A stretch of 64,000 nucleotides of DNA from a virus: IMG/VR virus record IMGVR_UViG_3300047320_000285, positions 1 to 64,000 of that record; one strand, given 5' to 3'. Below are positions 29,969 through 47,877 of this stretch, in pieces (position 1 is the first letter of the stretch; each line of letters opens with the position of its first letter). Made by a program: the position numbers and the translations under genes. Below the pieces are notes generated by a model. That model saw nothing but the letters and a program-made list of their open reading frames with translations, ran no database searches and was not told the DNA's origin.

Positions 29969-30016
29969 AGTCTATTTTTATGACTATTTTGCTATCTGCC
30001 GCGAAGGAGTGATGCG

Positions 30017-30556
30017 ATGCCATCCTTGACCCCCTACATCGGCCTGAGCAATCTGCGTCTGACGGCGATGGTGAACAAGGATAATAACAAGACGCTGACA
30101 GAGGGAGTGGACTTCACCTACGGGGAGATCGTCGCCATCATCGGTCGCGATGGTCGCAATGCAATGGTGAGGTTGACTCCGGTGGCGGGTTCAGGCTATC
30201 CGAGCGCACAAGAGATTCAGTACTGGCGATTGGGCATTGACGCCTTAGGTCGATTGCCGGCGGGGTCCACCGACTCCGTCCCCGTACCTAGGCTGCCGTT
30301 TAACATCCACGGGATTCTCCCGGTGATTAATACGGCACTCGGTCTGAACCTCAGGCCAGCTGAGGTAGAAGATTCGATTTATACTGAGGAAGCGCCGTCG
30401 TACGCCTTAAAAATCGTCGATGGTTCGCTGGCATGGTTTCCCTCGACGTACAACTTTCCGGCCACCAATACCGGGGTTGATACGCCTCTGTCGAGCATCA
30501 TTGTTAACCCGGTGCTCAGCGGTTTGGTGTATGTCGAACAGCCTGTTACAGGCTAA
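30017..30556 (+). CDS. Fibre-array protein, domain A only (divergent copy)
   Basis: 179 aa. First of 14 array genes. It contains one copy of the recurring ~150-aa domain A: an N-terminal 'LSNLRLTAMV' helix/strand, a GSGYPSAQEIQYWRLGI strand pair (the usual GxGYxGSxTVxYxRxNL motif), then INTALGLNLRPAEVEDS (usual INxxYGLNLTxxDxxD) and a final 'VNPVLSGLVYVE' strand. No domain B. The most divergent copy, so it may have a specialised capping role. Domain A is inferred to be a fibre or adhesin module; I know no characterised homologue. Confidence 0.65.
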   Translation: MPSLTPYIGLSNLRLTAMVNKDNNKTLTEGVDFTYGEIVAIIGRDGRNAMVRLTPVAGSGYPSAQEIQYWRLGIDALGRLPAGSTDSVPVPRLPFNIHGILPVINTALGLNLRPAEVEDSIYTEEAPSYALKIVDGSLAWFPSTYNFPATNTGVDTPLSSIIVNPVLSGLVYVEQPVTG

Positions 30557-30590
30557 TTTCTTCTAGCATCTTATGCTAGATCGTTCTTTT
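30541..30590 (+). terminator. Twin hairpin after first array gene
   Basis: GCCTGTTACAGGC hairpin at the stop codon and TCTAGCAT / ATGCTAGA (30562-30580) stem, then TTCTTTT. Confidence 0.5.
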
Positions 30591-30625
30591 CCGCTCGATA
30601 TTCACTCACTTGCTGAGGCTCAAAC

Positions 30626-31153
30626 ATGGCTTTCCAACTCGACTTCACCAAGGCTCCGGAACAGATCCTTCTGGACCAGATCAACAATGACAACACCAGC
30701 GCGCTCACGCTCGCCCAAGTGAGTTTCGGCTTGCCGACCACCACCACCGGCGGCTCCCCGGCGCGTGACACGCAAGTGACGGTCTCCTCCATCACGGGCG
30801 AAGGCTACAGCGGCTCGGTGGTGGTGGAGTACAACCGCGTCAATATCTCGACGGTGCCAGGGGTTCGCTCCACGATCTTCCCGAAGGGCTCGGCGGTCAA
30901 CATCAGTGACCTGATTCCGCAGATCAACGCGGCCTATCAGATCAACCTGACGACGGCCGACTACACGGATGCGCCGTTGCCGACCTTCACGGGCACACCG
31001 AACGAAGAACACGATTTCCAGCTGGTGATCAGTTCGGACTCGCTGCCGTTCGAAAACAGCCTGACGCTGACCGTGAAGTCCAACGACATTCCGCTGTCGT
31101 CGGTGATCACGAGCGCCACGCTGAACGGTCTGGTCTACACGCAGCCTGCTTAA
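30626..31153 (+). CDS. Fibre-array protein, domain A only
   Basis: 175 aa, ATG 30626. A single domain A: QINNDNTSALTLAQVSFGLP at the start, GEGYSGSVVVEYNRVNI near 60, INAAYQINLTTADYTDAP near 100, and the closing TSATLNGLVYTQPA. Lacks domain B. Separated from its neighbours by hairpins on both sides, so it can be expressed apart from the longer array genes. Codon use is that of well-expressed structural genes. Confidence 0.7.
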   Translation: MAFQLDFTKAPEQILLDQINNDNTSALTLAQVSFGLPTTTTGGSPARDTQVTVSSITGEGYSGSVVVEYNRVNISTVPGVRSTIFPKGSAVNISDLIPQINAAYQINLTTADYTDAPLPTFTGTPNEEHDFQLVISSDSLPFENSLTLTVKSNDIPLSSVITSATLNGLVYTQPA

Positions 31154-31185
31154 GTCGCCCTTTCTGCAGTAGTCCAATCCTGACC

Positions 31186-31214
31186 AAAGGGGGAGGCTTC
31201 GGCTTCCCCCTTTT
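31186..31214 (+). terminator. Strong terminator with U-run
   Basis: AAAGGGGGAGGC / GCTTCCCCCTTTT stem (one G.T pair) with TTCG tetraloop, ending in TTTTATAT. Confidence 0.8.
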
Positions 31215-31234
31215 ATATTTGCAGAGAGGTGAAT

Positions 31235-32035
31235 ATGGCACTTTTAGCAGCGGCCCCGCAAGACGATTTGCTGGCGCTGATTAACGCCGCCAACCCGAAT
31301 CTGCCCGTACCCGTCAGTGCTGATAACCTGTACTTTGGCAACGCCCGCCTCGATTCCGACGGTGTCACCGCCGTACTGCCGACCACAGCGATGCTGGGCC
31401 GGGAGTACCGTGGCTATGTCGATTTTCGCTATAAGCGGATTAACCTGAGTAAGGTGTACGATACCCGACCGCAGCTCACAGCTGTAGGGGGCAAGACACT
31501 GTACGACATGCTGGATGTGGTCAATCGTTTTCTGGGTCTGAATCTCACGACCCAAGACGTATTGAACACCTCGGTAGCAGACGTGGGCTCGGGCGAGCAG
31601 GTGAACATCAACGTGCAGACCGTGCCGGGTTCGTACGGTTACGAAGGCGCGATGGTGATCCAGTTTTTCCGGATCCGGCCATTCATGAACCACGTGGTGG
31701 TGAATGCGGAATTGTCGGTGCTGAACCACTTGGTCGATGCGACGATCGCCAAGAAGGATCTCGACATGCAGATGTGGAATGTGGATTTTTCCAATTCCGT
31801 CTCGGTACTGGCTGTGCAGAACAACTTCTGGAAAAGCGTGGCTGCCGTACAGGCACTGATGGCCGAGGAGTTCGGTTACGCGGACTGGCCGGCACCGGCT
31901 GTGCATGGCGTGACCGATTATGCGACCAAAGACTATCCGGGCGCAAATCTGAACTTCCAGCGCGTGGCCGTGCAGAAGAACGTCGTGGGGTCGACCTACC
32001 AAGGTAACGCCCTCTTCCATTACAACCTCATTTAG
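31235..32035 (+). CDS. Fibre-array protein, domains A + B
   Basis: 266 aa from ATG 31235 (GAGAGG site); a GTG two codons earlier is less likely. Domain A: LLALINAANPNLPVPVSADN, REYRGYVDFRYKRINLSKVY, VNRFLGLNLTTQDVLNTS, GSYGYEGAMVIQF. Domain B starts near 175 (LDMQMWNVDFSNSVSV) and ends with LFHYNLI, matching the G-x-L-x-x-HYN end seen in the next four genes. Five A+B genes follow one another here with gaps of 8-11 nt, which points to tandem duplication and divergence. Likely a distal tail-fibre or decoration protein. Confidence 0.75.
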   Translation: MALLAAAPQDDLLALINAANPNLPVPVSADNLYFGNARLDSDGVTAVLPTTAMLGREYRGYVDFRYKRINLSKVYDTRPQLTAVGGKTLYDMLDVVNRFLGLNLTTQDVLNTSVADVGSGEQVNINVQTVPGSYGYEGAMVIQFFRIRPFMNHVVVNAELSVLNHLVDATIAKKDLDMQMWNVDFSNSVSVLAVQNNFWKSVAAVQALMAEEFGYADWPAPAVHGVTDYATKDYPGANLNFQRVAVQKNVVGSTYQGNALFHYNLI

Positions 32036-32043
32036 GACTCCCT

Positions 32044-32916
32044 ATGTCGCTTTATCCACGTCCCATGGATGCGATTCTGGGTGCGATCGCGACGCAAAAC
32101 GGCGGCGTGACGTTGGTGGAGGATGAGTACACCTTTGGTGCGCCGACTCCGTGGACCGATCCGTCGGGCCTCACCAACACCCAGCTGAGCATCACGGCCA
32201 TCCAGCCCGATAGTCCTTATCAGGGTACGGTGACCGTCAACTACAAGCGGTTGAATCTGGCCGACTTGACGCAACTGTTGCCGTTACCGATTCAGGGCAA
32301 TGGCTGGCTCACCGTCGCCGATTTCTGGGCGGTGCTCAACAGTAACTTCGGCCTGAACTTTGTCGCGGGCGATCTGAACGACGCCACCGCCTTGGTGATT
32401 GCGGGAGACGGTTCCGGTAGCGTGACCCTGACTGCCCAAGCCAACTCGATGGGCTGGGTCGGTAGCGTGACGCTGCCGTTTATCAAGGGTAACTTTGATC
32501 TGGCGACCACGGTGACCGTGACCACGTTGCCGGGTCTGGTGTTTCCGAATCGGGACGAAACCAAGCCGTATGGTGAGATGTACTCGTACTGGCGTGACAT
32601 GACCGCCTACGAGGCGGACTTCACGCCGATCACGACAGCGACGACCGATCTCACGCAAGTCGCCACGGACCTCACCGCACAGTCGGGTAACACGTGGCTC
32701 ACCGGCGCCTCAGGCCGTTACAGCCTGCAAAACGCAACGGTGGCCTATAACGGTACAGTGGCGGACTTCACGCCGATTGTCAACAGCAGCACCACTCCGA
32801 ACCCGAGCTATCAGAATGTCTTGGTGATCGCGCTCGATCCGACCGCCTCACTGGGCTACTCCGGTTGGCTTTTCCTGCACTATGGTCGGCTTGACGACGG
32901 CTTCGGCACAACCTAA
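32044..32916 (+). CDS. Fibre-array protein, domains A + B
   Basis: 290 aa, ATG 32044, 8 nt after the previous stop. Domain A (1-175): PYQGTVTVNYKRLNLADLTQ, LNSNFGLNFVAGDLNDAT, SMGWVGSVTLPFIKGNF, LPGLVFPNRDETKPYG. Domain B (180-290): YEADFTPITTATTDLTQVAT, a central LTGASGRYSLQNATVAYNG and the LFLHYGRLDD ending. Closely follows the pattern of the genes at 34739 and 35696, with which it shares the LPGL-FP junction. Virion surface role inferred from array context. Confidence 0.75.
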   Translation: MSLYPRPMDAILGAIATQNGGVTLVEDEYTFGAPTPWTDPSGLTNTQLSITAIQPDSPYQGTVTVNYKRLNLADLTQLLPLPIQGNGWLTVADFWAVLNSNFGLNFVAGDLNDATALVIAGDGSGSVTLTAQANSMGWVGSVTLPFIKGNFDLATTVTVTTLPGLVFPNRDETKPYGEMYSYWRDMTAYEADFTPITTATTDLTQVATDLTAQSGNTWLTGASGRYSLQNATVAYNGTVADFTPIVNSSTTPNPSYQNVLVIALDPTASLGYSGWLFLHYGRLDDGFGTT

Positions 32917-32927
32917 CGGGAGGCAGT

Positions 32928-33761
32928 ATGAGCACATTGACTCCCAGTGGTGAGAAGCTGGTTATCCTGCTTAACGAGACGTTCGTCCCGCCGACCATCT
33001 TCGACGATACGCGCATTTCGTTTGGGGTGCCAACCGATGCACCGGGAGATGCTACGGATTACGATACGGTCGTGATCGGTAGCGCGATTCCCGGGATGGG
33101 GTACTTTGGTGACGCAGAGATTCACTATACGCGGGTGCCGCTGATTAACCTCGGTACCGTGACCTTGGCGTCGTTGTCGGTATTCACGCCTGCGACCTTG
33201 ATTGCCGCGCTTAATGCGCAGTGCGAGGCGTTTCTGGATGTGACGGACTTTGTGAGCTTCACGATTCCGACCATCCCGAATGGCGGCTCGGCCCCGTTGA
33301 CCTTGACGGCGGACCCGAGTTCGTTGGGCTGGAAGGGGGCGATTACCCTCACGCTCCTGCACGACAAGCCCCAGCTGTCGGCGGTCGTCGGCGCTAAAAC
33401 GCTGAACGCGATGGTCAGTCCGGACGCGGCCGGGAATGCGGTGAATGGCCGCGCGTTGCTGTTTAACGTGGACTTCACGTCATTTCGCGATGCGATTAAG
33501 CCGATGGCACTGCCGATCCAGCCGGGTTGGAACTACATGGGCTTTACGGATTACGCGGCGCTGGCTGACGTCTGTGCACGGATTGGTATTCCGGGCTTCC
33601 CCGCGCCGTGGGTGGCTTCGCAGGTGGCGGACTATGCGACGTCGCAGATCGCAGACAGTAACCAGAATTTCGATCGGGTAGTGGTCATGGGTTACGTACC
33701 CAGCGGGCCGATGTATCCGGGCCCGCTGTACTTCCACTACAACCTTCTTGACAATCGGTAG
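32928..33761 (+). CDS. Fibre-array protein, domains A + B
   Basis: 277 aa, ATG 32928 behind GGGAGG. Domain A here has GMGYFGDAEIHYTRVPLINL and LNAQCEAFLDVTDFV at the usual places, and SLGWKGAITLTLLHDK. Domain B starts near 170 (ALLFNVDFTSFRDAI) and finishes LYFHYNLLDNR, with the SQVADYATSQIADSNQNFDR segment clearly akin to VHGVTDYATKDYPGANLNFQ in the 31235 gene. Thus 31235 and 32928 form one B subtype, and 32044, 33770, 34739 another. Confidence 0.75.
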   Translation: MSTLTPSGEKLVILLNETFVPPTIFDDTRISFGVPTDAPGDATDYDTVVIGSAIPGMGYFGDAEIHYTRVPLINLGTVTLASLSVFTPATLIAALNAQCEAFLDVTDFVSFTIPTIPNGGSAPLTLTADPSSLGWKGAITLTLLHDKPQLSAVVGAKTLNAMVSPDAAGNAVNGRALLFNVDFTSFRDAIKPMALPIQPGWNYMGFTDYAALADVCARIGIPGFPAPWVASQVADYATSQIADSNQNFDRVVVMGYVPSGPMYPGPLYFHYNLLDNR

Positions 33762-33769
33762 GGCCTGAC

Positions 33770-34729
33770 ATGCCACTTTATTCCAAGCAATCCCAGCAGC
33801 TTCTGGTGGACCTGATCAATGCGTCCAATCCGAGCCTGCCGGTCGCCCTGACGACGACCAACGCGAAGTACGGGACCCCAGCGGTGATTACGCCGCAGGC
33901 GGGGACGATTCAAAACACCTCAATCAGGGTCACAGCCTTGGCGAGCGGCCAGTACATTGGCAATACCACGCTGAATTACCGGCGACTGGACTTTGCCAGC
34001 CTGTTGCGCTCGGTACCGGTACGGATCGACAAGTTCTCGCCAGCCAACATCGGCGCCAGTCCGTTTAAGATCAGTGACCTGATCTCGGTGATCAACTCGA
34101 AATACGGGTTGAACCTGCAGGCTACCGACTACGTGGACGGCAGCATGGCGGCGGGTAACACTAACGCGGTGCCGGCTATCGGACTGGTCGCGGGTACGCG
34201 CAACAGCTCGATCACCGTCAACGCCGCGGCGGGTAGTTACGGTTATGTCGGTTCGTTCACGCTGTACTGGGTGCAAGCACCGCAAGACCTCGCGACGATG
34301 ATTACCACGCCGTCGCTGGAAACAGCACGGGTCTTCCCGGGCAATCGTAACGTGGTGGACAGTTCGATCTACGTGGTCGATCTGGATACCTACAGCCAAG
34401 ACTTCACCGACTACTTCGGGACGGGCGGTACGCTCAGCCCGACGACCTTCGCTAGTCAGACGATTAACACCGTGGGTAGCTGGCCGGCGTTTATCACCAT
34501 GCTCAACACGCTGTCGGGCAAGACGTACACGAACACCGGCAACGGCTCGCAGGCGATGGATCTGGTTGGTTCCACGACCAGTGCCCAGCTCGACATGACG
34601 CTGCCCGCTAACCAAGCACTGTTCCCGGAGGCCAACTTCAAGTATTACAACCGTCTGATGGTCGTGACGTTGTCGGCGAACGCGGCGGCTTGGGGCGCAG
34701 GTAAGCTGTTTATCCACTACAACGTTTGA
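33770..34729 (+). CDS. Fibre-array protein, domains A + B
   Basis: 319 aa, ATG 33770, 8 nt after the previous gene. Begins MPLYSKQSQQLLVDLINASN, similar to the start of the 35696 gene (QVPYKQSQSQTDVFMALINQ). Domain A: GQYIGNTTLNYRRLDFASLL, INSKYGLNLQATDYVDGS, GSYGYVGSFTLYWVQAPQDL. Domain B from about 200 (YVVDLDTYSQDFTDYFG) to the end (GKLFIHYNV). Uncharged, Thr/Asn/Ser-rich, as for extended virion proteins. Confidence 0.75.
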   Translation: MPLYSKQSQQLLVDLINASNPSLPVALTTTNAKYGTPAVITPQAGTIQNTSIRVTALASGQYIGNTTLNYRRLDFASLLRSVPVRIDKFSPANIGASPFKISDLISVINSKYGLNLQATDYVDGSMAAGNTNAVPAIGLVAGTRNSSITVNAAAGSYGYVGSFTLYWVQAPQDLATMITTPSLETARVFPGNRNVVDSSIYVVDLDTYSQDFTDYFGTGGTLSPTTFASQTINTVGSWPAFITMLNTLSGKTYTNTGNGSQAMDLVGSTTSAQLDMTLPANQALFPEANFKYYNRLMVVTLSANAAAWGAGKLFIHYNV

Positions 34730-34738
34730 GGCTAAGCG

Positions 34739-35641
34739 ATGTCTTTTTTCCAATACGCATCACTGAACGATCTGGTTCGCGCGATCAATGCCGCGAACGG
34801 GACCTCGTTCTTGCTGACGGATTTGTCGTTCTCGAATCCGAAAGTCGTCGCTGGCACGTGGCAGGGTAATAATTCCGACCGCAACTCAGCGATCAAGGCA
34901 ACCGCGGCCGCCCCAGCTTTTCAGGGCTCGCAGGTTGTGCTGTATAACCGGCTTGATCTGGGCCAACTTATCGCGCTACCCGGTGCCCGGCTGAAGCTGC
35001 CGGGCACCGTCACCCACGTGTGGGACTGCTTGCCGATGCTCAAGTTTTACTTCGGCATCAGCTTCGTCCAAGGAGATCTGCAGAACACCGCGGTGACCGT
35101 GGGTGGCGATGGGACGGGCACGCTGAACATCACCGCCGATCCGAATTCGATCGGCTGGCAAGGTAGCGTGGCAATTCCGTTCACGGCCGGTGGTTCACCG
35201 ATCGATGTTGCGGTAGCAACCACGCAGCTGCCGGGTCTGAACTATCCGGTGGGTGATCCACCCTCGGTGCCGGGCACGTCGGTCTACGGTCCGGCTTATC
35301 TGTATCCGTACGACTTCACCACCTACACGCCGACCATCATCAACTACACGCCGGGTGTGCTCACCACTCCACAGGCGGACTTCTTGGTGGCGGCGTTGGC
35401 GGCGTTGGACATCGGTGCCGGTAAAGCACTCTGGAACGATACGACCTCGGGCGGCACGTTCACGACGTGGAACTTGACGGGTGCGACGATTGTCTCGAAC
35501 GGGTTGAATGACCCGATCAACAATCCGACCAATCCGGCCTACAAGTACGTGATGGTGCTCCAGTTGCGGGCGGATGTCACGATCCCGACTGGCTTGCTGT
35601 ATCTGCACTATAACGACCCGTTCGACCCGAACAACTTCTAA
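34739..35641 (+). CDS. Fibre-array protein, domains A + B
   Basis: 300 aa, ATG 34739, 9 nt after the previous stop. Domain A: LVRAINAANGTSFLLTDLSF, AFQGSQVVLYNRLDLGQLIA, LKFYFGISFVQGDLQNTA, SIGWQGSVAIPFTAGG and the LPGLNYPVGDPPSVPG junction. Domain B: YPYDFTTYTPTIINYTPGVL, ALWNDTTSGGTFTTWNLTGA and GLLYLHYNDPFDPNNF. Last of the five compact A+B genes and followed by a hairpin. Confidence 0.75.
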   Translation: MSFFQYASLNDLVRAINAANGTSFLLTDLSFSNPKVVAGTWQGNNSDRNSAIKATAAAPAFQGSQVVLYNRLDLGQLIALPGARLKLPGTVTHVWDCLPMLKFYFGISFVQGDLQNTAVTVGGDGTGTLNITADPNSIGWQGSVAIPFTAGGSPIDVAVATTQLPGLNYPVGDPPSVPGTSVYGPAYLYPYDFTTYTPTIINYTPGVLTTPQADFLVAALAALDIGAGKALWNDTTSGGTFTTWNLTGATIVSNGLNDPINNPTNPAYKYVMVLQLRADVTIPTGLLYLHYNDPFDPNNF

Positions 35642-35651
35642 CCCAAGTTGT

Positions 35652-35677
35652 CGAGCGGGGTTTTCGAATCCCGCTCG
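35652..35677 (+). terminator. Hairpin in the fibre array
   Basis: CGAGCGGG (35652-35659) / CCCGCTCG (35670-35677), 10-nt loop GTTTTCGAAT. The loop looks like a tRNA T-arm but there is no room for a tRNA. No U-run. Confidence 0.55.
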
Positions 35678-35695
35678 TTCTGAATGAGGTCACGT

Positions 35696-37174
35696 ATGCA
35701 AGTACCGTATAAACAAAGTCAAAGCCAGACTGACGTGTTCATGGCTTTGATCAATCAGTCCAATCCGGGCTTAAGCGTGCATCCGTTGCAGCTCACGGAT
35801 CTGCGCAGCCTCGCACCGACGGTGATTGCGTCACCGGTCGGTATTCAGGACACGAGTATTCGTTTGTTGGTGAAGCCTAGCAACGCGAATTACTACGGTT
35901 CACAAACCGTCACGTACCGTCGCATCAAGCTGTCGCAAGTCTACAAGGGTCTACCGACCAATGGCGGTGTACCCACCCTAGCGTTACTGCAGTATTCATC
36001 CAGTAGCCTGACGGTCGCCCAGATTATCGCTGAAGTGAACCAGCGTTTGGGTACCGCGTTTGTGCTGGCTGACATTGCCAATGCAGGACCGCTAGTGAGT
36101 GGCAGCACCATGACACTCGTGATGAACGCGACGTCGCTGTGTTATCAGGCCGAGGGCGCGGGCTCGATCAACGTCACGTGGACCCGCCCCAAGCAACCGC
36201 TGCAGGCCAGTCCGGGCGGAGCGATCACCACGATTCCGACGGTACTGAATGGCCGGAGTTACCCGGGCGGTAACACGTTTCCGCGTACCACGCCGCAAGG
36301 GGACTTCTTTACCTACGGGGCCGACTTCAGTCAAGTATCGACGCAGCTCAATGCGCTGGCGGCGACGGGCACGATCACCGCTGCGATGTTGCAAACGGGT
36401 GGCTCGTGGAATACCATCGTCGGTTTGATGCAGGCGCGCCGTCCGAGTCTGAACTTCAACGCCAGTGATGCAGGCTCAGTGTCAGGCGGTTTGCTCAACT
36501 GTACGTGGGCCCGCTTTACGATTCCGTCCGCGTCGGTACCCGGGGCGAACGCGGTCAAGTTCACCAGTGTGGTGGTGGTTCGCCCCCCTGTGTCGGGGAC
36601 ACCGTGGTTCCAAGGACAGATCTATCTGCACTACACGCCGGGTTCGGGTACGTCGACGGTCGAAGGGTTCTATCTGAACTCCAACGACGAACTGCAGCAG
36701 TTGATGATTGCGGCTGGCGCCACCAACATCGGGCAGAATACCGCCACCACCGGTTGGACGGTTACGGGGATCCGGGCGACCAAGACCGCGGATAATCAGC
36801 CGAACCAGAATACCAAGCTGCGGGTCACCCCGCAACCGGGCAACACGTTTTATTCCAGCTTTGCGGATCTGTTTTACAACCGCATGGACTTGCAGTTTCT
36901 GGCCAGCTTTAATCCGTACGTGTTGTCGATGGCGCCGGGCATTTCGGTATTGACGGTACTGAACACGATTCGTGATCAGTTTGGTATCCAGCTGACTACG
37001 GACGACATCAACGACGCGACCACGGTGGATAAGTTTGGGGATGGCTCTGCTACGTCTGTTACACTGGTGGCCAAGAGCACGTCGCTCAGCTGGTTCGGTA
37101 CCGTGACCCTGACGTTCGGTGGACTGCCGGATATTTCGACTGCGTTCGTCTCGCCGGTCCTGACTGGCTTCTAA
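35696..37174 (+). CDS. Fibre-array protein, domains A + B + A
   Basis: 492 aa from ATG 35696, placed by AGGT just before it; an ATG at 35684 is possible. It carries one A domain (to about 190), a B domain ending QIYLHYTPGSG near 325, and a second A domain (DELQQLMIAAGATNIGQNTA ... VSPVLTGF). The next gene then encodes a lone B domain, so the two genes together make a full A-B-A-B. This looks like a fused duplicate whose last quarter was split off. Same inferred virion-surface role as its neighbours. Confidence 0.72.
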   Translation: MQVPYKQSQSQTDVFMALINQSNPGLSVHPLQLTDLRSLAPTVIASPVGIQDTSIRLLVKPSNANYYGSQTVTYRRIKLSQVYKGLPTNGGVPTLALLQYSSSSLTVAQIIAEVNQRLGTAFVLADIANAGPLVSGSTMTLVMNATSLCYQAEGAGSINVTWTRPKQPLQASPGGAITTIPTVLNGRSYPGGNTFPRTTPQGDFFTYGADFSQVSTQLNALAATGTITAAMLQTGGSWNTIVGLMQARRPSLNFNASDAGSVSGGLLNCTWARFTIPSASVPGANAVKFTSVVVVRPPVSGTPWFQGQIYLHYTPGSGTSTVEGFYLNSNDELQQLMIAAGATNIGQNTATTGWTVTGIRATKTADNQPNQNTKLRVTPQPGNTFYSSFADLFYNRMDLQFLASFNPYVLSMAPGISVLTVLNTIRDQFGIQLTTDDINDATTVDKFGDGSATSVTLVAKSTSLSWFGTVTLTFGGLPDISTAFVSPVLTGF

Positions 37175-37187
37175 TAAAGGACTTATG

Positions 37188-37610
37188 ATGAGTAAGATTT
37201 TTTGGCCGAACTATCTGTTCCATGCTGACTTCAGTGCGGATCAGGCCGAGCTGGCAGAGATCCCGCTGGGGGCAGTCAGTGCGGATACGGCGACCTTGCT
37301 GGCGGCGACGCTCTCGACCCATGACACCGGTGAAGGCCGGGCGTTGTGGACCGATCAAGCAGCTAACGCGTGGTCGCTCGAAGGGGTGGAAGTGACGTAC
37401 AACGGTCAGAACAGTTCGCTGTTCCCGACCAAGTATATCCACAACACCGTACTGGGGATTAAGTTCCCGGCGGATTCTGTCACGCCGCCTGCAGGTACGT
37501 TGCTGTATCTGCAGTACGACACGTCGGCTAACCCCCCGACCATTGCGGATCCGGCACCCGAGGAGCCTGCTCCCACGGAACCGACCGACGACTCAACCCC
37601 GCCGGCATAA
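37188..37610 (+). CDS. Fibre-array protein, domain B with Pro/Glu tail
   Basis: 140 aa. ATG 37188 has better spacing from AAAGGA than the adjacent ATG 37185. The whole folded part is a single domain B: YLFHADFSADQAELAEIPLG, LWTDQAANAWSLEGVEVTYN, GTLLYLQYDTS. It ends in an acidic Pro/Thr/Glu-rich tail (about 115-140) unlike other copies. It completes the A-B-A of the gene just upstream and is followed by a hairpin. Confidence 0.7.
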   Translation: MSKIFWPNYLFHADFSADQAELAEIPLGAVSADTATLLAATLSTHDTGEGRALWTDQAANAWSLEGVEVTYNGQNSSLFPTKYIHNTVLGIKFPADSVTPPAGTLLYLQYDTSANPPTIADPAPEEPAPTEPTDDSTPPA

Positions 37611-37620
37611 GTCGATTCTG

Positions 37621-37644
37621 GGTCACCTTCTCACGAGGGTGACC
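37621..37644 (+). terminator. Hairpin before first lectin-fibre gene
   Basis: GGTCACC / GGTGACC with an inner CTC/GAG pairing (37621-37644). Followed by TGGTATCATCTTTCCCG; weak U-content. Confidence 0.55.
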
Positions 37645-37686
37645 TGGTATCATCTTTCCCGTGTTTGTTTTTCATTCGAGGTAATC

Positions 37687-40041: not shown

Positions 40042-40055
40042 TTAAAGGATGGATC

Positions 40056-42386
40056 ATGCCTATTCACGACATGTGGTCGTACGACGCGGCAGTGCAGGGG
40101 GCCACCGACGTGTCCACTGGTACCAGCCTCGCAGCGTATGTTGAAAACGGCCTGTATAACCAGTACAGCGGTTTGCCGGGCATGTTGTATAAGAACACCA
40201 GCGCTACGGCGGCGCTCGGCGTAGACGGCTTCCTGACGCTGACGGCGGCCGGTACGCTGAACGCCTGCTTGCTGGTGCAAGCCAAGGAGGTGCAGGACTG
40301 GTCGGTCGCTACGCAATACTGGCTGGGGTTCCGCACCAAGACCACCAGTCAGAACGTGGCCACTGCCCACGTGTTCAAGCTGGTTGACGTACCGGGCATG
40401 ACCAACGCGTCGGTGTTTCTGTTGGAGTCGGATTTGACGGCCGCAGGCGCTAACGTTTCCGGGACCGAGTATTACGTCGAGGTCTTTGTCGATCGCGTGA
40501 ATCTCGTCTATCAGGTCTGGGTCAATGGTATCCAGATCAAGAATGGCGCGATCAGCGCGGCCTCGGTGATCGCCAATGGCGGGAGCTACTACGTCTACGG
40601 CGCGACCGGCAGTCCGGCCAACCCGGTCAATGGTAATAACCGGTCGTTTCGGGATTACTATTTCGTCGATGTCGATGCAATCAAGACGCCGGGTCGACTT
40701 GGTTCGGTCCGGTCTTCGCCCCAGATCACTCCGCTCCCGAGTGCGCCGAACAACGGCTCGCTGTATCAGTCCACGATCTCCGCCACGCAGTCGAAGTTCG
40801 GTGGCTCGTCGCTGTCGGTGGGTGCTGCAGCCGCTTCGGTGGTGACGGTACCGGATAGCCCGGCGCTGCGCTTGGGGGTGACGGGAGACTGTACGGTCGA
40901 GTGCTGGGTCTATTACACGGGGGGTGGTACGACACCGGTGGTGTTCGGCAAACAGATCAACAACCTGCCGAACTACGCTCACCTCACGATGAGTAGCGGT
41001 AACTGGGTGTTCTATACGGACAGCGGCGCAGCCGTGATGACGGTAGCCTCCGGCGCGATCACCAATACGTGGGTGCATATCGCTGCGGTCAAACAAGGTA
41101 CGACGTGGACCCTGTATCAGAATGGGGTGGCGCTCGGCTCAGTGAACAATAACGGCACGTTCGGCAATAACAGCGCACCGTTCTTGATTGGTAACTGGGG
41201 TGGTCTCAACTCGCAATGGCTCGGGTTCATCGACGAGTTCCGTATCAGTAACATCGCCCGTTACACCGCAGCCTTTACACCGCCCACGCAGGTCTTTACA
41301 CCGGACGCAAACACACTTGCGCTGTGGCACATGGAGAGCAGTGTTCTGGGGCAGATTCTGGATTCGGTCCCAGCCTTTACACCAACCACTCTGCCCACCT
41401 CGCCCAATGCAGTAGGCTATAGCGCGCAGCTGCTGGGTTCGGCTGGTTTGTCGACTACGCAGGCCAAGTTCGGCACTAGCTCGTTTGTGACCAACGGCGT
41501 GGCGGGCTCGTGCGCGCAGATCCCGGACGCACCGCAGTTGCGCTTGATCAACGACTGGACGATCGAGTTCTTTACGTACAACCCGTCGCCGGCTACGGTA
41601 ATGATGTACCTGAATAAGGGCACCAACGCGTATTTGTTTAACAATGCTGGCACGCTCGGTCTGTCGCTCGATCCGGCGAACTCATTGGTGATCAACGTGG
41701 CGGGTCTTCTGAAAGCTAATCAGTGGCAGCATATCGCGGTCACCAAGCTCGGTCTGAATGTGCAGTTGTGGGTTGACGGAGTATTGGCGGGTTCACTGGT
41801 GGCGGCACTCCCCAACGGCACGTTCGGTAATGTGGCCAGCCCGTATCAGATCGGCATGTGGACCAACAACACCGACGAGATGGTGGGTTTCATGGATGAG
41901 TTGCGCATCAGTAACATCGCCCGTTACATCGCACCGTTCACCCCGCCGACTCAGCAGTTTGTGGTCGACGCCAATACACTGGTACTGATGCACTTTGAGT
42001 CGGTGTTCAATGGCATGCTGGCTGATGATGCCTGCAACGTTGCAGACTTGCTGCAAACGCCTTATCTGGCACCCCCCGGTGTGTTGCCAATGCTGGTAAC
42101 CTCGCCGACTAACGATCCGGTGACTGTGCCGTTGGGTGCACCGACCCCCGGTAAGTTGTTGGCCGTCGATTTCCGGCTGGGGATCAAAGCCAATAATGGG
42201 CCGGCCAGCATGTCGGGACAACTGAATCAAGGCAGCAACAATCAGGCTACCCCTACCCTACAATTGACCGATAACAGTCTGGGCTACGCGCGACGTCTCG
42301 CACTGACGACTGCGGCGCCGGATGGCGGGGCTTGGACACAGGCCAAGATTGGCACCACGTCTTTGGTGCTGACGCCTAATACCTAA
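40056..42386 (+). CDS. Lectin tail-fibre protein with two LamG domains
   Basis: 776 aa, ATG 40056 behind AAAGGATGG, 14 nt after the previous gene. The order differs from its paralogue: head domain (MPIHDMWSYDAAVQGATDVS, 1-~225), then two LamG domains in tandem (about 240-425 and 430-650, closing SNIARYTAAFTPPTQVFTPD and SNIARYIAPFTPPTQQFVVD), and only then the collar segment (LVTSPTNDPVTVPLGAP ... APDGGAWTQAKIGTTSLVL) at the C-terminus. The shuffled order of conserved parts shows recombination between fibre genes. Probable glycan-binding fibre. Confidence 0.85.
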   Translation: MPIHDMWSYDAAVQGATDVSTGTSLAAYVENGLYNQYSGLPGMLYKNTSATAALGVDGFLTLTAAGTLNACLLVQAKEVQDWSVATQYWLGFRTKTTSQNVATAHVFKLVDVPGMTNASVFLLESDLTAAGANVSGTEYYVEVFVDRVNLVYQVWVNGIQIKNGAISAASVIANGGSYYVYGATGSPANPVNGNNRSFRDYYFVDVDAIKTPGRLGSVRSSPQITPLPSAPNNGSLYQSTISATQSKFGGSSLSVGAAAASVVTVPDSPALRLGVTGDCTVECWVYYTGGGTTPVVFGKQINNLPNYAHLTMSSGNWVFYTDSGAAVMTVASGAITNTWVHIAAVKQGTTWTLYQNGVALGSVNNNGTFGNNSAPFLIGNWGGLNSQWLGFIDEFRISNIARYTAAFTPPTQVFTPDANTLALWHMESSVLGQILDSVPAFTPTTLPTSPNAVGYSAQLLGSAGLSTTQAKFGTSSFVTNGVAGSCAQIPDAPQLRLINDWTIEFFTYNPSPATVMMYLNKGTNAYLFNNAGTLGLSLDPANSLVINVAGLLKANQWQHIAVTKLGLNVQLWVDGVLAGSLVAALPNGTFGNVASPYQIGMWTNNTDEMVGFMDELRISNIARYIAPFTPPTQQFVVDANTLVLMHFESVFNGMLADDACNVADLLQTPYLAPPGVLPMLVTSPTNDPVTVPLGAPTPGKLLAVDFRLGIKANNGPASMSGQLNQGSNNQATPTLQLTDNSLGYARRLALTTAAPDGGAWTQAKIGTTSLVLTPNT

Positions 42387-42397
42387 GTGAGTGAGCT

Positions 42398-43456
42398 ATG
42401 TCGAAAGCAAAAAACATGTATGCGTTTGACCATATCCCGGTCGGTTCTTCCGCCACCGGCGGGAATGTGCCAACGTATAGCGATTTCCCGTTTGCCTACT
42501 TTAACTCGACGGTCGCTGGCGCGTTAAGTGGTGGTACGGCGGTGGATGCAGGTGGGACGTGGTTGGTCTCCGGCGCCGCTGGCGCAGCCAGTAACTTCTA
42601 CGCGGGCTTCTGGTACTACCCGATGGCGCAGTTCGACCTGAGCAAAGCACGCAGCTGGATTGGTTTTCGTCTGAAGATGATGAGTGCGAATCGCGTCAAT
42701 CCGCCGCTCGCAGTCTGGACGGCGGCTTTCGCCACGCAACCAGCGAACTTGGTGTTGGGTAACGATTACCCATTCGTGACGGGTCAGGAGCACTATGTTG
42801 AGGTGTTGATCGACCGCGTCAATAAGACGCGTACGGTCTGGGTGGACAGTCAGCTGGCGGTGCCAGCCGTGTCGTATGGTTCGTACACGATCCTGAGCAC
42901 GGACCTGTTGAGTTTCGGTACTAACGGTCCGACTGGCGGCTCGACCGCGCAAGCCTACCAGATCAAGGATGTGTACACCGTTGACGATCCGAACGATGGC
43001 TCAGTGACGCGCATGGGGCCGATTATCGCCCGACCGATTACGGAGGCTTCAGCTACCGGAGCCGGTTGGAATGCGTCAACCGGCACGCCTTTGTCAGCAC
43101 TGAATACGCCGGTCAATACCACTACCCCGAGTACGCCGAACGTGGCGTTCGCAGGTGACGGCACGCCGCTGATCGCGACGCTGCAAACGACCGCCGATCC
43201 GGGTGCGGTAGTGCAAGGTGTGCTGTTGATCGGCTCGGGTCAACGTAATCAGGGTACGGGCACGGTGTTTCGTACGACCATCACAGATCAAGCCACCCCC
43301 ACGCCGAATCAACAACAGATCGCCACGTTGTTTCCGGCCGGGTCGTATCAGTACGGTAAGAGCTTGGCGTTCTTGCCCAATGCGTTGGATGGCAGTAACT
43401 GGAGTGCAGCCAAGATTGCGCAGCTGACACTGTCCAATGTAGCCAGCGCGACTTAA
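42398..43456 (+). CDS. Fibre protein: head and collar domains without a lectin
   Basis: 352 aa, ATG 42398. Head domain (KNMYAFDHIPVGSSATGGNV; LIDRVNKTRTVWVDSQLAVP) to about 215 and collar segment from about 240 (TTADPGAVVQGVLLIGSG ... NALDGSNWSAAKIAQLTL), corresponding to the first and last parts of the 40056 protein with both LamG domains missing. It may be a shortened fibre, a hub that the lectin fibres attach to, or a decoy version. Located between two lectin genes, with the same spacing. Confidence 0.75.
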   Translation: MSKAKNMYAFDHIPVGSSATGGNVPTYSDFPFAYFNSTVAGALSGGTAVDAGGTWLVSGAAGAASNFYAGFWYYPMAQFDLSKARSWIGFRLKMMSANRVNPPLAVWTAAFATQPANLVLGNDYPFVTGQEHYVEVLIDRVNKTRTVWVDSQLAVPAVSYGSYTILSTDLLSFGTNGPTGGSTAQAYQIKDVYTVDDPNDGSVTRMGPIIARPITEASATGAGWNASTGTPLSALNTPVNTTTPSTPNVAFAGDGTPLIATLQTTADPGAVVQGVLLIGSGQRNQGTGTVFRTTITDQATPTPNQQQIATLFPAGSYQYGKSLAFLPNALDGSNWSAAKIAQLTLSNVASAT

Positions 43457-43470
43457 CAAGGGGTCGGTAG

Positions 43471-46353
43471 ATGTCTACAACTTTTCGCAAGACCGCCGCC
43501 GTCACATGGACGAAGGACCCGACTTCCGTTTCCTTGCGAAATGCGAAAGCGGTGGCCTTCGCCAGTGATGTCGGCGGTAACTTGCGTAACTTGCAGGGGT
43601 ATGCGTTCCAGAGTCCGCTACCCGGCGGGAATCTGCGCACTATCCGCGGTTACGCCTTTCAGTCAGTGAAACCGGCCTTGCCCCTCAATGTCACGGGGGA
43701 CTTGGCGCTGTACGCACTGATCAACACCAACAACATCGCACTGAGCCCGTGGTCGGCCAGTAACTCGACGCTGGGTGTACCGAGCGCGTTAGGTACACCG
43801 CTGGCGAGTGGTCAGAATACGCAGGTCAGTCTGACGGCCAAGCAGAGTTCGGGTTACAGTGGGGCGATGACGTTTCAGTACGCCCGTCGTAATCTCGCGG
43901 ATGCTTTTCCGACACCGGTGGCGATTACCGTACCGGGCAGTGCGACGACGATCTACGCGCAGCTGGCGATGATCAACACGAAGTACGCGATGAACCTGAC
44001 GCAGGCGGACGTGGTGGATGGTCCGATTGCAGCAGGTGCCGCCAGCGTAGTACTGACTGCCAAGTCGACCAGCTGGTTGTTTCTGCCGGGCACCACCGCA
44101 ATTGCTGGTAGCCCGCCGACACTGGCCTCAGTGCTCACGGAGCCGAACCTGCCGGGCTTTACCAATGTCGCTGGGGTGGGTCCGGGTTATCCGTACGCGC
44201 AGTCAGTCTTGCAGATGCACTTTGAAGGCTCTGGTGCTGCTCTGGCGGCCGATAGCTTCGGGCATCCGATGACGACTGTGGGTAACGTGGGGGTGAACTC
44301 GACTTTCACGTCCAAGTTTGGCACGGGCTGTAGTGGTTCAACCGGCGTGGGGATTTACTACACGACGGTGGATCGCGGTGATCTGCGTCTGGGCGCAGAC
44401 TTCACGATTGAGTTCTGGATGTATTGTTCCAACGTCACCACGGCCACCGGTACGTTGCTGGCGAAGGGTGCTTCGTTGACCCAAGCGTCGATGCAGTTGG
44501 TGAACGCCAACTTGGTGATCAACTCGGATCAAACTCCCGGTTTGATTAACGTCGCGCACGGCGTTGCCGCTAACACTTTCACGCATATTGCGTTAGTGAA
44601 GGCTGCGGGTGTATGGACGTTGTATGTGGGTGGAGTGGCAAAAGCAACGATTACCAAGACCGATACGTTTGGTGTGAACGCTTCGCCGTTGGTGATTGCC
44701 AACAGCTTCAATGGCGCAGCACCGCCACCGACGTTTATGGACGAACTGCGGATCAGCAATGGTATCGCTCGGTACACGGCTGCCTTCACGCCGTTGACCT
44801 ATGCATTCGGTGACGTATCGACGACGACCTTCGATGGTTTGCCGACGGGTAACGCCCAGTTATTGATGCACTTTGACGGGGCCGATACCAGCACGGTGTT
44901 CAAGGAAGAGAATGGTCGACCGGTGACGAACACGGGTGGTCAGTTGACGACGGCGTTGGCTCAGTTTGGTCCGAGTTCGCTGGCACCGTTGCCGGTCAGC
45001 AGCAACGTCGTGACCCTGCCGTCTGACCACAGTCTCCAGTTGTCGGATAACTGGACGATGGAAGCGTGGGTCAACAACCTCAGTGCAGGTCAGACAGGGG
45101 TGGTGTTCTCGAAGGATAACGGTGCGTCACCGTTCGCCCACCTGACGTATGCGGCGGGTTTCTGGCAGCTGTTCCTCGATGGCGCGGCGGTCGCGATGTC
45201 GGTGGCCGCCAGCACGGTGTTGAACACGTGGATCCATATCGCGGTGGTTAAGCGGCGCGGTACCGTGGCGATTTACCAGAACGGTGTCTCGCTGGGCTCA
45301 CTTGCCGCCGCCAGTACGTTTGGTAACAACAATTCGCCGTTCCAGATTGGTAACTGGGGTGGTCTGGCCAATCCGTTCCAAGGTTACATCGACGAGGTCC
45401 GCGTGAGCAAGGTGGCGCGTTACTTTGGTAACTTCACCCCGCCTACCGCACCGTTTGCATTGGGTGCGGCTGACCGGATGACGCTCACACAAGCCTTCCA
45501 GAATAACGGTATTTTCTGGGTTGCACCGACTAGCGCCACCACGATTCTGGCCCAGCTGGCGACATGGAACACGATGTCTGGTGTACCTTTGAGTGCGACC
45601 GATTTGGCGGATGGTCCGATTGCTGCCAATGCTTCCAGTGTTACGCTGACGGCAGCAGCCACCAGTACCAGTCTGGTGCCGGGTAGTCAGATTACCATCA
45701 CGGCCAAGAACACTGCGTTGCTCATGCATTTCGATGGTACCAGTGGTGCGCAGACGTGGACCGACGAACGCGGGCATGCAATGACGACGTCGGGTGGGAC
45801 AGTTGCCACGTTACAGCTTTCCAACGTGCAGGCGAAGTTTGGTGGTACGTCGTTCCTCAGTACGGGCGCAGGCGCAATCATCACCCCGTCAGCGCCGGAG
45901 CTTATGTTGGGGGTCACCACGGACTTCACCATTGAGTTCTTCTTTAACATGATCGGTGTCGTGGCTGGTCAGGTGATGTACGAGAAGGGCAACTCAGGCG
46001 CGCGGGTGCAGTACAACGCCGGTAAGCTGTATGTGTATTCCGACCAGTCAGCGAATACGGACGGGGGTCAGTTGCTGACCGTGGCAGCGAGCTTTATCAA
46101 GACGGCTCAATGGCAGCACATCGCCATCGTCAAGTTCAACGGTACGTGGACTGCGTATGTGGATGGGGTGGCGCAAGTCAGTGTCAGTGCACCGACGCAG
46201 ACCTTCGGCAATAACACCAACAACGTGATTATTGGTAACTACTTCAACGGTGCAAACCCGCAGAACGGTTACATGGACGAACTGCGGGTGAGTAACGTCG
46301 CACGTTATACGGCTGGCTTTACGCCGCCCACGGCGCCATTCGTGCTGGATTAA
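43471..46353 (+). CDS. Largest fibre protein: domain A, two LamG, half domain A, third LamG
   Basis: 960 aa, ATG 43471. An unusual N-terminus with two GYAFQS repeats (near 45 and 65) is followed by a domain A (about 78-235; SSGYSGAMTFQYARRNLADA, INTKYAMNLTQADVVDGP). Then come LamG 1 (about 245-450) and LamG 2 (about 460-665), the second half only of another domain A (TILAQLATWNTMSGVPLSAT, about 675-740), and LamG 3 (about 745-960; closing SNVARYTAGFTPPTAPFVLD). It links the A/B family and the lectin family in one polypeptide. The half A domain is a recombination scar. Likely a main receptor-binding fibre. Confidence 0.82.
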   Translation: MSTTFRKTAAVTWTKDPTSVSLRNAKAVAFASDVGGNLRNLQGYAFQSPLPGGNLRTIRGYAFQSVKPALPLNVTGDLALYALINTNNIALSPWSASNSTLGVPSALGTPLASGQNTQVSLTAKQSSGYSGAMTFQYARRNLADAFPTPVAITVPGSATTIYAQLAMINTKYAMNLTQADVVDGPIAAGAASVVLTAKSTSWLFLPGTTAIAGSPPTLASVLTEPNLPGFTNVAGVGPGYPYAQSVLQMHFEGSGAALAADSFGHPMTTVGNVGVNSTFTSKFGTGCSGSTGVGIYYTTVDRGDLRLGADFTIEFWMYCSNVTTATGTLLAKGASLTQASMQLVNANLVINSDQTPGLINVAHGVAANTFTHIALVKAAGVWTLYVGGVAKATITKTDTFGVNASPLVIANSFNGAAPPPTFMDELRISNGIARYTAAFTPLTYAFGDVSTTTFDGLPTGNAQLLMHFDGADTSTVFKEENGRPVTNTGGQLTTALAQFGPSSLAPLPVSSNVVTLPSDHSLQLSDNWTMEAWVNNLSAGQTGVVFSKDNGASPFAHLTYAAGFWQLFLDGAAVAMSVAASTVLNTWIHIAVVKRRGTVAIYQNGVSLGSLAAASTFGNNNSPFQIGNWGGLANPFQGYIDEVRVSKVARYFGNFTPPTAPFALGAADRMTLTQAFQNNGIFWVAPTSATTILAQLATWNTMSGVPLSATDLADGPIAANASSVTLTAAATSTSLVPGSQITITAKNTALLMHFDGTSGAQTWTDERGHAMTTSGGTVATLQLSNVQAKFGGTSFLSTGAGAIITPSAPELMLGVTTDFTIEFFFNMIGVVAGQVMYEKGNSGARVQYNAGKLYVYSDQSANTDGGQLLTVAASFIKTAQWQHIAIVKFNGTWTAYVDGVAQVSVSAPTQTFGNNTNNVIIGNYFNGANPQNGYMDELRVSNVARYTAGFTPPTAPFVLD

Positions 46354-46402
46354 CAATTGTAAGAGCGCTGTAAGCAGGATTAAGTTCCTACGGCAATCTT
46401 AT

Positions 46403-46431
46403 GTGGGCTCTCTCGTTGTGAGAGAGCCCAC
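46403..46431 (+). terminator. 12-bp perfect hairpin
   Basis: GTGGGCTCTCTC (46403-46414) / GAGAGAGCCCAC (46420-46431) with a 5-nt loop, preceded by CTTAT and followed by GTCTTCC. Ends the long fibre genes. Confidence 0.7.
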
Positions 46432-46449
46432 GTCTTCCTCGAGGGAATC

Positions 46450-46992
46450 ATGGCAAAAATCGATGCAAGCAAGTCCGCATTGGACAACTTGCTTGTTCTG
46501 GTGAATACGGCCAACACTGGCCAAACCATCACGAACGCGCAAGTGACCGCGGCAGCTGCGACGGTGAAAACCGATACCGGCGACGGTCGCAACACCTCCG
46601 TGGTGTTGTCGGCAGTGGGCGGCCAAGGTTATAGCGGTTCGCAGACGGTCAACTACACCCGGCGCGCGCTGAACGACAGTGTCACGTCGCCGAACTTCGC
46701 AGCCACACAAACCATCGGTGACACGGCCTCGGCAATCATCGCTGCGCTCGCCACCACCAACGGCCTCGTGGCGTCGGAACTTCACCTCGAAGATCCGGGC
46801 GCACCCGGTACGCCGGTCACGGGTGCGATCAACAACAGCCCCGCTACGTTGAACCTCGTGTCGGCCAACGGCTCGCTGTTGTACATCGACGGTTCGTCGC
46901 AAGCGATCACGTTCACGTGGAACGCACCGTCGGTGCCTCTGACGACGGCGATCGCCACGGTTGACCTCGCCGGCTTCGACGCGGCTTCCTAA
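46450..46992 (+). CDS. Fibre-array protein, domain A only
   Basis: 180 aa, ATG 46450 behind GAGGGA. Starts MAKIDASKSALDNLLVLVNT, nearly the same as the next gene (PNIQIDPSKSGLENLLAMVD), so the two are a duplicate pair. Domain A motifs: GQGYSGSQTVNYTRRALNDS, ATTNGLVASELHLEDPG, SQAITFTWNAPSVPL. Soluble and Thr/Val/Asn-rich. Flanked by terminators on both sides, so separately expressed. Confidence 0.72.
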   Translation: MAKIDASKSALDNLLVLVNTANTGQTITNAQVTAAAATVKTDTGDGRNTSVVLSAVGGQGYSGSQTVNYTRRALNDSVTSPNFAATQTIGDTASAIIAALATTNGLVASELHLEDPGAPGTPVTGAINNSPATLNLVSANGSLLYIDGSSQAITFTWNAPSVPLTTAIATVDLAGFDAAS

Positions 46993-47010
46993 GCGCGGTG
47001 GTAGGACAGA

Positions 47011-47045
47011 AGCAGGGGCCTTCGGGCTCCTGCTTTTTTATGCCG
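47011..47045 (+). terminator. Strong terminator, U-run into TTATGCC
   Basis: AGCAGGGGCC / GGCTCCTGCT stem with a short TTCG loop (47011-47034), then TTTTTTATGCC. Confidence 0.85.
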
Positions 47046-47076
47046 AATGCTATGCCTTCCCCTCTTGTGAGTAATC

Positions 47077-47544
47077 ATGCCGAATATTCAAATCGATCCA
47101 AGCAAGTCTGGCTTGGAAAACCTGCTGGCTATGGTCGATGCGTTCAATACGAACGGCCCTGCCACGCCTGACGAAGTGAGCGTGAGTAACCTGCAGGCGA
47201 TCACGCCTAACGGGGTGCTTAACACCTCGGTCACCCTCACGGGTACTAACACCGGCGCTACTCACTATACGGGTAGTGTCACGGTCGAATACGGGCGACT
47301 GGTGCTGGCAGATGAAGCTACCAACCCGTCGACACCGGTGGAGATCCCCAACGGTACAACCGACCCGGTTGTCATCCTCGGCTTGGTCGCCACACATTAC
47401 GGGTTTGTGCTGGCGGACATTAGCTGGCAAGCTAACCCGACGGTACCCGGTGCGTTTCCGGCCGACACCAGCGAGACGGTCCAGTGTTCGGGTTCACTCG
47501 TGTATCAGGACGGCACGGCAAGCGTCAATCTGCACTGGGATTAA
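47077..47544 (+). CDS. Fibre-array protein, domain A only
   Basis: 155 aa, ATG 47077. Last gene of the array and the shortest A copy: SKSGLENLLAMVDAFNTNGP, THYTGSVTVEYGRLVLADEA, VATHYGFVLADISWQA, ending SVNLHWD. Compared with the others it lacks the last strand of domain A. The close likeness to the 46450 gene's first 15 residues supports recent duplication. Confidence 0.72.
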   Translation: MPNIQIDPSKSGLENLLAMVDAFNTNGPATPDEVSVSNLQAITPNGVLNTSVTLTGTNTGATHYTGSVTVEYGRLVLADEATNPSTPVEIPNGTTDPVVILGLVATHYGFVLADISWQANPTVPGAFPADTSETVQCSGSLVYQDGTASVNLHWD

Positions 47545-47554
47545 GCCTGCCTTT

Positions 47555-47584
47555 GAGCCCCGCCCGCAGGCGGGGCTCTATGCC
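47555..47584 (+). terminator. End-of-array terminator with TATGCC
   Basis: Perfect 10-bp stem GAGCCCCGCC / GGCGGGGCTC with CGCA loop (47555-47578), then TATGCC. It marks the boundary between the late fibre array and the early-type region. Confidence 0.75.
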
Positions 47585-47650
47585 AGTTCTATTTTATCTC
47601 GGACCTATATCACGTGAATGTACTGGATACCTAATCGAAGGAGCAACATC

Positions 47651-47860
47651 ATGTTGAAAGATCATTGTCACGATGTCACCGACGTCAAGTTTCATGAAGT
47701 TGTGCAAGGCATGCCGGAGGTTCGCAATGTGTGGTTCTATCAAGACCGCACCTGTCCGTTCATGACCTACGCGCATCTGGCACCGCAACACACGCAGGCT
47801 CGGCAAGACCCCACGATCGGCACAGCAATGGGTCTCTCAGCCCTGCAAGCGTGTCACTGA
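47651..47860 (+). CDS. Small hypothetical protein, 69 aa
   Basis: ATG 47651 behind GAAGGAG; the longer open frame from 47618 has no binding site. His/Cys-containing (MLKDHCHDVTDVKFHEV), soluble, no recognised family. First gene after the array terminator. Followed by the long stem-loop at 47878-47927. Confidence 0.6.
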   Translation: MLKDHCHDVTDVKFHEVVQGMPEVRNVWFYQDRTCPFMTYAHLAPQHTQARQDPTIGTAMGLSALQACH

Positions 47861-47877
47861 GGGCGAGGTAGCATGAC

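Follow-up and report, generated by a model that had tools for sequence, protein, structure and literature searches.

The window analysed here (64,000 nucleotides, positions 1 to 64,000 of IMG/VR virus record IMGVR_UViG_3300047320_000285) contains what we take, with a probability of roughly 0.6, to be a cluster of structural genes from a jumbo phage of the phiKZ/SPN3US kind, combining a fixed virion-surface platform of DUF7941 proteins with exchangeable ConA-like lectin cassettes of two sorts, LamG and H. The DUF7941 scaffold was already known; its lectin-bearing variant is new. In the mechanism we propose, ancient DUF7941 paralogues (domains A and B), each with one fixed position, would form the platform, lectin modules lie alongside and in part joined to it in the same genes, and co-infecting related phages would swap these modules by recombination, diversifying attachment without a dedicated mutator such as a reverse transcriptase, invertase or integrase. 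More tentatively, at slightly under even odds, the locus may serve as an adhesin exchange platform, on which cassettes (LamG here, Gp38-type in SPN3US) are traded at domain edges between related phages onto fixed DUF7941 anchors, yielding combinatorial attachment diversity.

The array occupies positions 30017-47544 and consists of consecutive plus-strand genes, all present, with their domain orders, where the initial annotation had placed them; that annotation counted fourteen, although it itself listed the fifteen found here. Domain order is A, A, AB x5, ABA, B, H-L-C-L, H-L-L-C, H-C, A-L-L-(half A)-L, A, A, where A and B are the two parts of DUF7941, H a 'head' domain, C a collar domain and L a LamG domain. 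The genes are as follows, percentages being identities to Burkholderia phage FLC9 (LC667451).

30017..30556, plus strand: DUF7941 A-only, slot a1 (PF25613 E 8e-17; gp326 50%)
30626..31153, plus strand: DUF7941 A-only, slot a2 (PF25613 E 2e-29; gp325 65%)
31229..32035, plus strand: DUF7941 A+B, slot ab3 (PF25613 full length E 3e-35; gp324 56%)
32044..32916, plus strand: DUF7941 A+B, slot ab4 (PF25613 E 5e-51; gp323 57% over AB)
32928..33761, plus strand: DUF7941 A+B, slot ab5 (PF25613 E 8e-30; gp322 56%)
33770..34729, plus strand: DUF7941 A+B, slot ab6 (PF25613 E 3e-43; gp321 51%)
34739..35641, plus strand: DUF7941 A+B, slot ab7 (PF25613 E 7e-45; gp320 64%)
35684..37174, plus strand: A+B+A, slots ab8 and a9 fused (gp319 43% and gp318 42%)
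37185..37610, plus strand: B-only, slot b10 (gp317 40%)
37687..40041, plus strand: H-LamG-C-LamG (PF13385 E 7e-42 and domain scan; LamG 38491-38934 and 39568-39984, C about 39079-39402)
40056..42386, plus strand: H-LamG-LamG-C (PF13385 E 2e-30 and domain scan; LamG 40839-41261 and 41514-41924, C about 42063-42383)
42398..43456, plus strand: H-C without LamG (domain scan; H modelled as a ConA-like lectin fold)
43471..46353, plus strand: A-LamG-LamG-(half A)-LamG (PF25613 and PF13385; A about 43687-44169, LamG 44359-44760, 45001-45417 and 45886-46305, half A about 45475-45720)
46450..46992, plus strand: DUF7941 A-only, slot a17 (PF25613 E 4e-16; gp309 66%)
47077..47544, plus strand: DUF7941 A-only, slot a18 (PF25613 E 2e-7; gp307 45%)

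The likeliest start of the H-LamG-C-LamG gene is ATG 37687 rather than TTG 37543. Slot ab7 is the most conserved (36% to SPN3US gp143; AlphaFold model with mean pLDDT 87.8), the B-only state of slot b10 is kept in relatives, and ab8 and a9, fused in the window, are two separate genes in every relative examined.

That these domains are truly repeated, as the initial annotation held, was borne out by a leave-one-out profile test in which each domain was scored against the other window domains only, with 200 shuffles of each as a control. E was at most 4e-15 for every full A, 2e-37 for LamG, 1e-9 for H and 7e-6 for C; the half A reached 1e-9, and the shuffles scored at most 14 bits. B is the weakest family, at E 3e-7 to 3e-4 in five cases and, on window data alone, at 0.05 in gene 31229 and 0.6 in gene 37185, both of which match FLC9 B domains by BLAST. 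Curated libraries concur independently (PF25613, PF13385, phrog_1037): A plus B is the known family DUF7941 (PF25613; PHROG 1037), found above the 27-bit cut-off at 13 places in the genome, 12 of them inside the array, and Laminin_G_3 (PF13385) exceeds its cut-off at seven places, all within the array, its matches in G000-G005 and FLC9 being likewise confined to this locus. Proteins related to the H-C gene at 42398 match phrog_2448. H is probably a lectin fold, since its structure model matches ConA-like lectins; its profile similarity to LamG is weak (probability 19%), the ConA-like fold being common to both. Where Foldseek matches H to proteins of the botulinum complex, at about 10% identity, the common element is the ConA-like jelly roll, and no toxin relationship follows from it. 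Whether B might be half of A is a weak lead only (hhalign pairwise E 0.002 over 27 columns, probability 14%). IMG/VR scans with the single proteins 30626 and 32044 found no relatives; these were recovered with an alignment query.

The A and B domains follow gene position closely. Among four related LamG-bearing phages, the best match lies in the same gene slot in 106 of 108 comparisons for A and in all 78 for B, and with lectin-free relatives added in 337/366 and 272/282, respectively. Across seven phages the slots are monophyletic: the trees need no more than the minimum of slot changes, 8 for A and 6 for B, a value as low being reached in 0/200 shuffles. By these comparisons A and B are old paralogues that, at about 40-55% identity between phages, have kept a constant order rather than being shuffled, and the trees indicate a backbone inherited vertically and in order.

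The lectin cassettes behave differently. Between the near-identical contigs G003 and G001, the A and B parts of gene 4 are 94% and 90% identical in nucleotides and the LamG 58%, identity falling at the LamG domain edge and being partly regained in the last codons; the value corresponding to this 58% is 92% between G002 and G003. In gene 14 the same type of comparison gives 65% for H and 92% for C, in gene 16 of G003 and G002 78% for A and 39% for LamG, and these LamG and H dips stand against flanks of about 92%. Cassettes also differ in placement: slot ab4 ends in a LamG in FLC9, G001, G002, G003 and G005 and lacks it in the window and G004, and slot a18 has a C-terminal LamG in FLC9 (gp307/gp308). 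Similar LamGs recur in different gene classes, with LamG of FLC9 gp314, an H-type gene, 70% identical to the last LamG of window gene 43471 and likewise 70% to LamG of G003 gene 16, and LamG of FLC9 gp315 75% identical to that of G002 gene 18. Thus the initial annotation's modular construction with recombinational exchange is supported for LamG and the lectin-like H and is not supported for A and B, and its proposed comparison with related phages found A/B order constant and LamG/H placement different. These patterns show that, among related phages, LamG/H cassettes come and go, give way to others and shift from one gene class to another. For a replaced LamG, a donor search outside the clade, covering cultured phages and viral contigs, gave no close match, the best reaching about 37% across most of the domain. 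The accessory region downstream also varies between near-identical contigs, so that variability is not unique to LamG.

It could be argued that a higher rate of evolution of LamG and H than of A/B, under relaxed or host-driven selection, is all that is needed, without any exchange of cassettes; the rank test of A/B against H/L identities gives just p about 0.01 on non-independent data, and the H/C block of G002 and G003 has parts that diverged throughout. We consider this quite unlikely, given that the identity step in gene 4 is sharp, sits at a domain edge and leaves a third phage unchanged, that LamGs are 70-75% identical across gene classes, and that the window's H domains are nearer G004 (55-71%, against 33-46% to others; 71% to gene 14 for gene 37687 and 62% to gene 15 for gene 40056), whereas its flanks and A/B are nearer FLC9/G003. 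The many repeated domains, the ABA fusion, the half A inside gene 43471 and H-L-C orders that differ between phages might instead suggest an active diversity-generating locus, reshuffling A, B and LamG units among its own repeats within one genome. This is hardly credible, as the A/B slots are monophyletic, near-identical DNA repeats are absent (few stretches exceed 75% identity, which indicates that the array repeats are old at the DNA level), and LamGs of the same genome reach at most about 55% identity, the best match lying in another phage in nearly all cases. We found no recent LamG copying within one genome, and 'recombination between repeats', proposed by the initial annotation, was therefore not upheld as a recent process.

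Its phrase 'without a reverse transcriptase' did hold, the 253,740-base record having no match to PF00078 (RVT_1). With that, and with no near-identical template/variable direct repeats in 29000-48500, a diversity-generating retroelement is not supported. An invertase, shufflon or integrase mechanism is likewise not supported, given the lack of any serine or tyrosine recombinase match (PF00239, PF00589) in G000, FLC9 and G001-G004 and of matching inverted sites, inverted repeats being short and imperfect (20-30 nt at 70-86%). Ordinary recombination between phages fits best.

Where these proteins sit on the particle bears on what the cassettes might do. Tandem DUF7941 arrays form the SPN3US 'paralog family B' (gp138-154 and others), reported, for SPN3US only, as head proteins after proteomic detection in DNA-filled tailless particles, gp141 and gp160 each numbering >300 copies per capsid and 'head ejection?' being suggested for abundant members (PMC5105663, PMC5694885); DUF7941 has been described as a paralogue family that may be larger than any other within one phage genome (PMC5105663). 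The window array might then encode internal or ejected head proteins, with LamG acting inside the host or capsid and not in adsorption, and family B, if internal, would speak against these proteins acting as exposed adhesins. We regard this as unlikely. The phiKZ homologue gp127, a profile match over its full length, lies in PDB 9xqd, 'outer peripheral region in the phage phiKZ baseplate complex', so that the published head assignment conflicts with this 2026 phiKZ baseplate model; a lone DUF7941 gene lies about 1-2.5 kb from gp131-type baseplate genes in 6/6 genomes checked; and in SPN3US the gene immediately following the array, gp155, joins DUF7941 to the adhesin domain of Gp38-type tail fibres (PF05268, E 7e-18), as the window joins it to multiple lectins. 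Such fusions would mark positions with host-binding parts and suggest that array proteins face outwards. We thus infer proteins exposed on the particle, a surface adhesin platform on either the head or the baseplate periphery, whose LamG and H domains would bind glycans, as the Laminin_G_3 fold suggests. With head proteins in the literature set against one solved homologue at the baseplate periphery, the 'fibre' label is unproven. Our literature search found no statement of the place of gp127, and for DUF7941 by name just unrelated work. The array is distinct from the SPN3US family C / phiKZ gp131 baseplate fibres, as gp131 matches map elsewhere in the record, at 155.9-158.5 kb.

Backbone order is constant across distant relatives while lectins are swapped, so this is probably the locus at which such phages diversify cell attachment. 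A fixed-slot backbone with exchangeable cassettes predicts which jumbo phage parts change when attachment changes, and the analysis tells the true exchange of LamG and H apart from the old paralogy of A and B, which mimics shuffling in a single genome. FLC9 gp307-gp326 form the same array in the same order, with A/B genes 40-66% identical to their positional orthologues; LamG placement differs (gp323 AB-LamG, gp307/308 A-LamG, gp314 H-C-LamG x3), H genes number six against three in the window, and the window's ABA is split into gp319 and gp318. A PF25613 search of SPN3US and BLAST between the arrays place the window array in family B, homologous to gp138-154: in both, virion genes with DUF7941 follow one another in a long tandem series, and the AB run is recognisable. 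Unlike the window, SPN3US has no Laminin_G_3 match, the Gp38-type fusion in gp155 standing in place of LamG, and in the middle of its array a block of three genes occurs three times in tandem (gp145-153), H-C genes being absent there. In phiKZ, gp127 and gp126 form a similar DUF7941 AB + A gene pair, but there are just two or three DUF7941 copies, no array and no lectin. The exchange of tail-fibre domains seen in phages such as the T-even group pairs a conserved anchoring part with a recombining receptor-binding part. The window shares this arrangement and differs in having many anchors side by side, at a virion location that may be the head or the baseplate periphery, and in exchanging a ConA-like lectin cassette.

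A domain scan of the window (bases 1–64000 of a 253,740-base IMG/VR virus record) confirmed the array and reproduced exactly the domain list of the initial annotation, although it contains 15 plus-strand proteins rather than the fourteen counted there. By profile matches, A and B belong to a single Pfam family, DUF7941 (PF25613; also PHROG 1037, 'virion structural protein'), and LamG to PF13385, and relatives of the head–collar (H–C) proteins match phrog_2448, whose function is unknown. Leave-one-out searches using the window domains only strongly supported A, LamG, H and C; support for B was weaker, and B was secured by matches in Burkholderia phage FLC9 (321,833 bases), the nearest cultured phage. 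Genes around the array have matches to structural families, internal head proteins of phages among them.

Features of the virus record
20677–23702, two adjacent genes matching internal head proteins (phrog_2497)
30017–47544, plus strand, array of 15 protein genes
52714–53436 and 60005–61018, genes downstream of the array for thymidylate kinase and thymidylate synthase, respectively
154060–154479, minus strand, lone DUF7941 gene, about 1.4 kb from two genes (155910–158487) matching phiKZ gp131

The DUF7941 scaffold is already known, with 17 matches in phage SPN3US and three in phiKZ, but a lectin-loaded form of it, in which slots are fixed and cassettes exchangeable, seems not to have been described in the papers searched. 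Among 18 IMG/VR loci found with an alignment query, the array includes LamG in contigs G001, G002 and G003 (310–315 kb), G005 (172 kb; ~99% identical to G003, with the same architecture) and G004 (244 kb); G006, G010 and G014 carry the same array with no LamG match. In SPN3US, a three-gene block occurs three times in tandem inside the DUF7941 array (gp145–gp153; 21519–31657 of its locus, L018), the copies being about 30–47% identical to each other.

The initial annotation had all domains shuffled, but the A and B domains keep to the same slots across phages. Every window A/B gene finds its best FLC9 match in its positional counterpart (40–66% amino-acid identity, versus about 25–40% to its own paralogues). 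With slot labels assigned by us from gene order, best matches fell in the same slot for 106 of 108 A and 78 of 78 B domains among the window, FLC9, G003 and G004, and for 337/366 and 272/282 once G006, G010 and G014 were added. Domain trees (62 A, 48 B), in which branch support is low for some slots (a9, ab5), required the least possible number of label changes (8 and 6), a figure that none of 200 shuffles matched; slots a1 (A tree) and ab8 (B tree) needed two changes each. The ABA gene is a fusion whose AB and A parts are encoded by separate genes in all relatives examined.

On lectin exchange the initial annotation was right: sequence comparisons show that LamG and H do move among phages and gene classes. 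The DNA of G003 and G001 is about 90% identical in the flanks and most A/B domains, yet within gene 4 (AB-LamG) identity is 58% for LamG against 94/90% for A/B, with a step at the LamG edge and a return to 83% in the last codons; the G002 LamG is of the G003 type (92%). Similar drops occur in gene 14 (H 65%, C 92%) and, between G003 and G002, in gene 16 (LamG 39%, A 78%) and gene 11 (H 56%, C 75%). Over both pairs, mean identity is 86% for A/B and 73% for H/LamG (Mann–Whitney p about 0.01, the values not being independent). LamG pairs with 70–75% identity occupy different gene classes: FLC9 gp314 (H–C type) pairs with both the A-type window gene at 43471 and G003 gene 16 (A type), and FLC9 gp315 (H–C) with G002 gene 18 (A type). 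The H block also has a different history, because window H domains are nearest G004 (55–71%, only 33–46% to the others), whereas the flanking genes (46–54% versus 40–47%) and A/B means (56% versus 53%) are on the whole closer to the FLC9 group than to G004.

As initially annotated, the array lacks a reverse transcriptase, there being no RVT_1 match in this genome; nor were resolvase or integrase matches found in it and five relatives, and inverted repeats are short and imperfect. LamGs of one genome share at most about 55% identity, and therefore recent intragenomic copying is not indicated; a search for a LamG donor beyond the clade found none. The simplest explanation for lectin exchange is recombination between related phages, homologous or illegitimate, which would proceed via conserved flanking and backbone DNA. 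An active diversity-generating process is unproven, as is the 'fibre' label.

Lines of evidence on placement conflict. SPN3US family B is present in DNA-filled tailless particles, hence a head assignment (PMC5105663, PMC5694885, PMC10052503). PhiKZ gp127, however, matches the DUF7941 profile full length (E 6e-68, being among its 18 sequences), is recovered by a window-only profile (E 4e-15), and is a partial chain in PDB 9xqd, 'The structure of outer peripheral region in the phage phiKZ baseplate complex'. Foldseek also ranks this chain first among the matches to the AB model (E 9e-6; TM 0.71 normalised to its 150 modelled residues). A single extra-array DUF7941 gene lies within about 1–2.5 kb of genes matching gp131, a peripheral baseplate protein of phiKZ (PMC5105663), in all six genomes checked (this virus, FLC9, G001–G004). 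Different paralogues could occupy different places, which would make both assignments correct.

The array proteins may act in adhesion through putative binding. SPN3US gp155, directly after its array, fuses DUF7941 to a Gp38 tail-fibre adhesin domain (PF05268, E 7e-18) and matches phrog_2056 ('tail fiber protein; host specificity'); the H model is a ConA-like jelly roll (mean pLDDT 76) that resembles, with an identity of about 10%, legume lectins and CBM40 domains; and an adhesion role has been proposed for LamG lectins in jumbo phage virions (PMC7824862). The A-LamG protein gp310 of FLC9 (5054–8284 of its locus, L009) has between LamG domains a glycine-rich stretch (about residues 565–835; phrog_4474) that recalls the glycine-rich Gp38-type adhesin. 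The gene immediately 5′ of the window array (29096–29968), with no Pfam or PHROG match, has a homologue among the relatives scanned in G004 only (35%), directly upstream of the G004 array.
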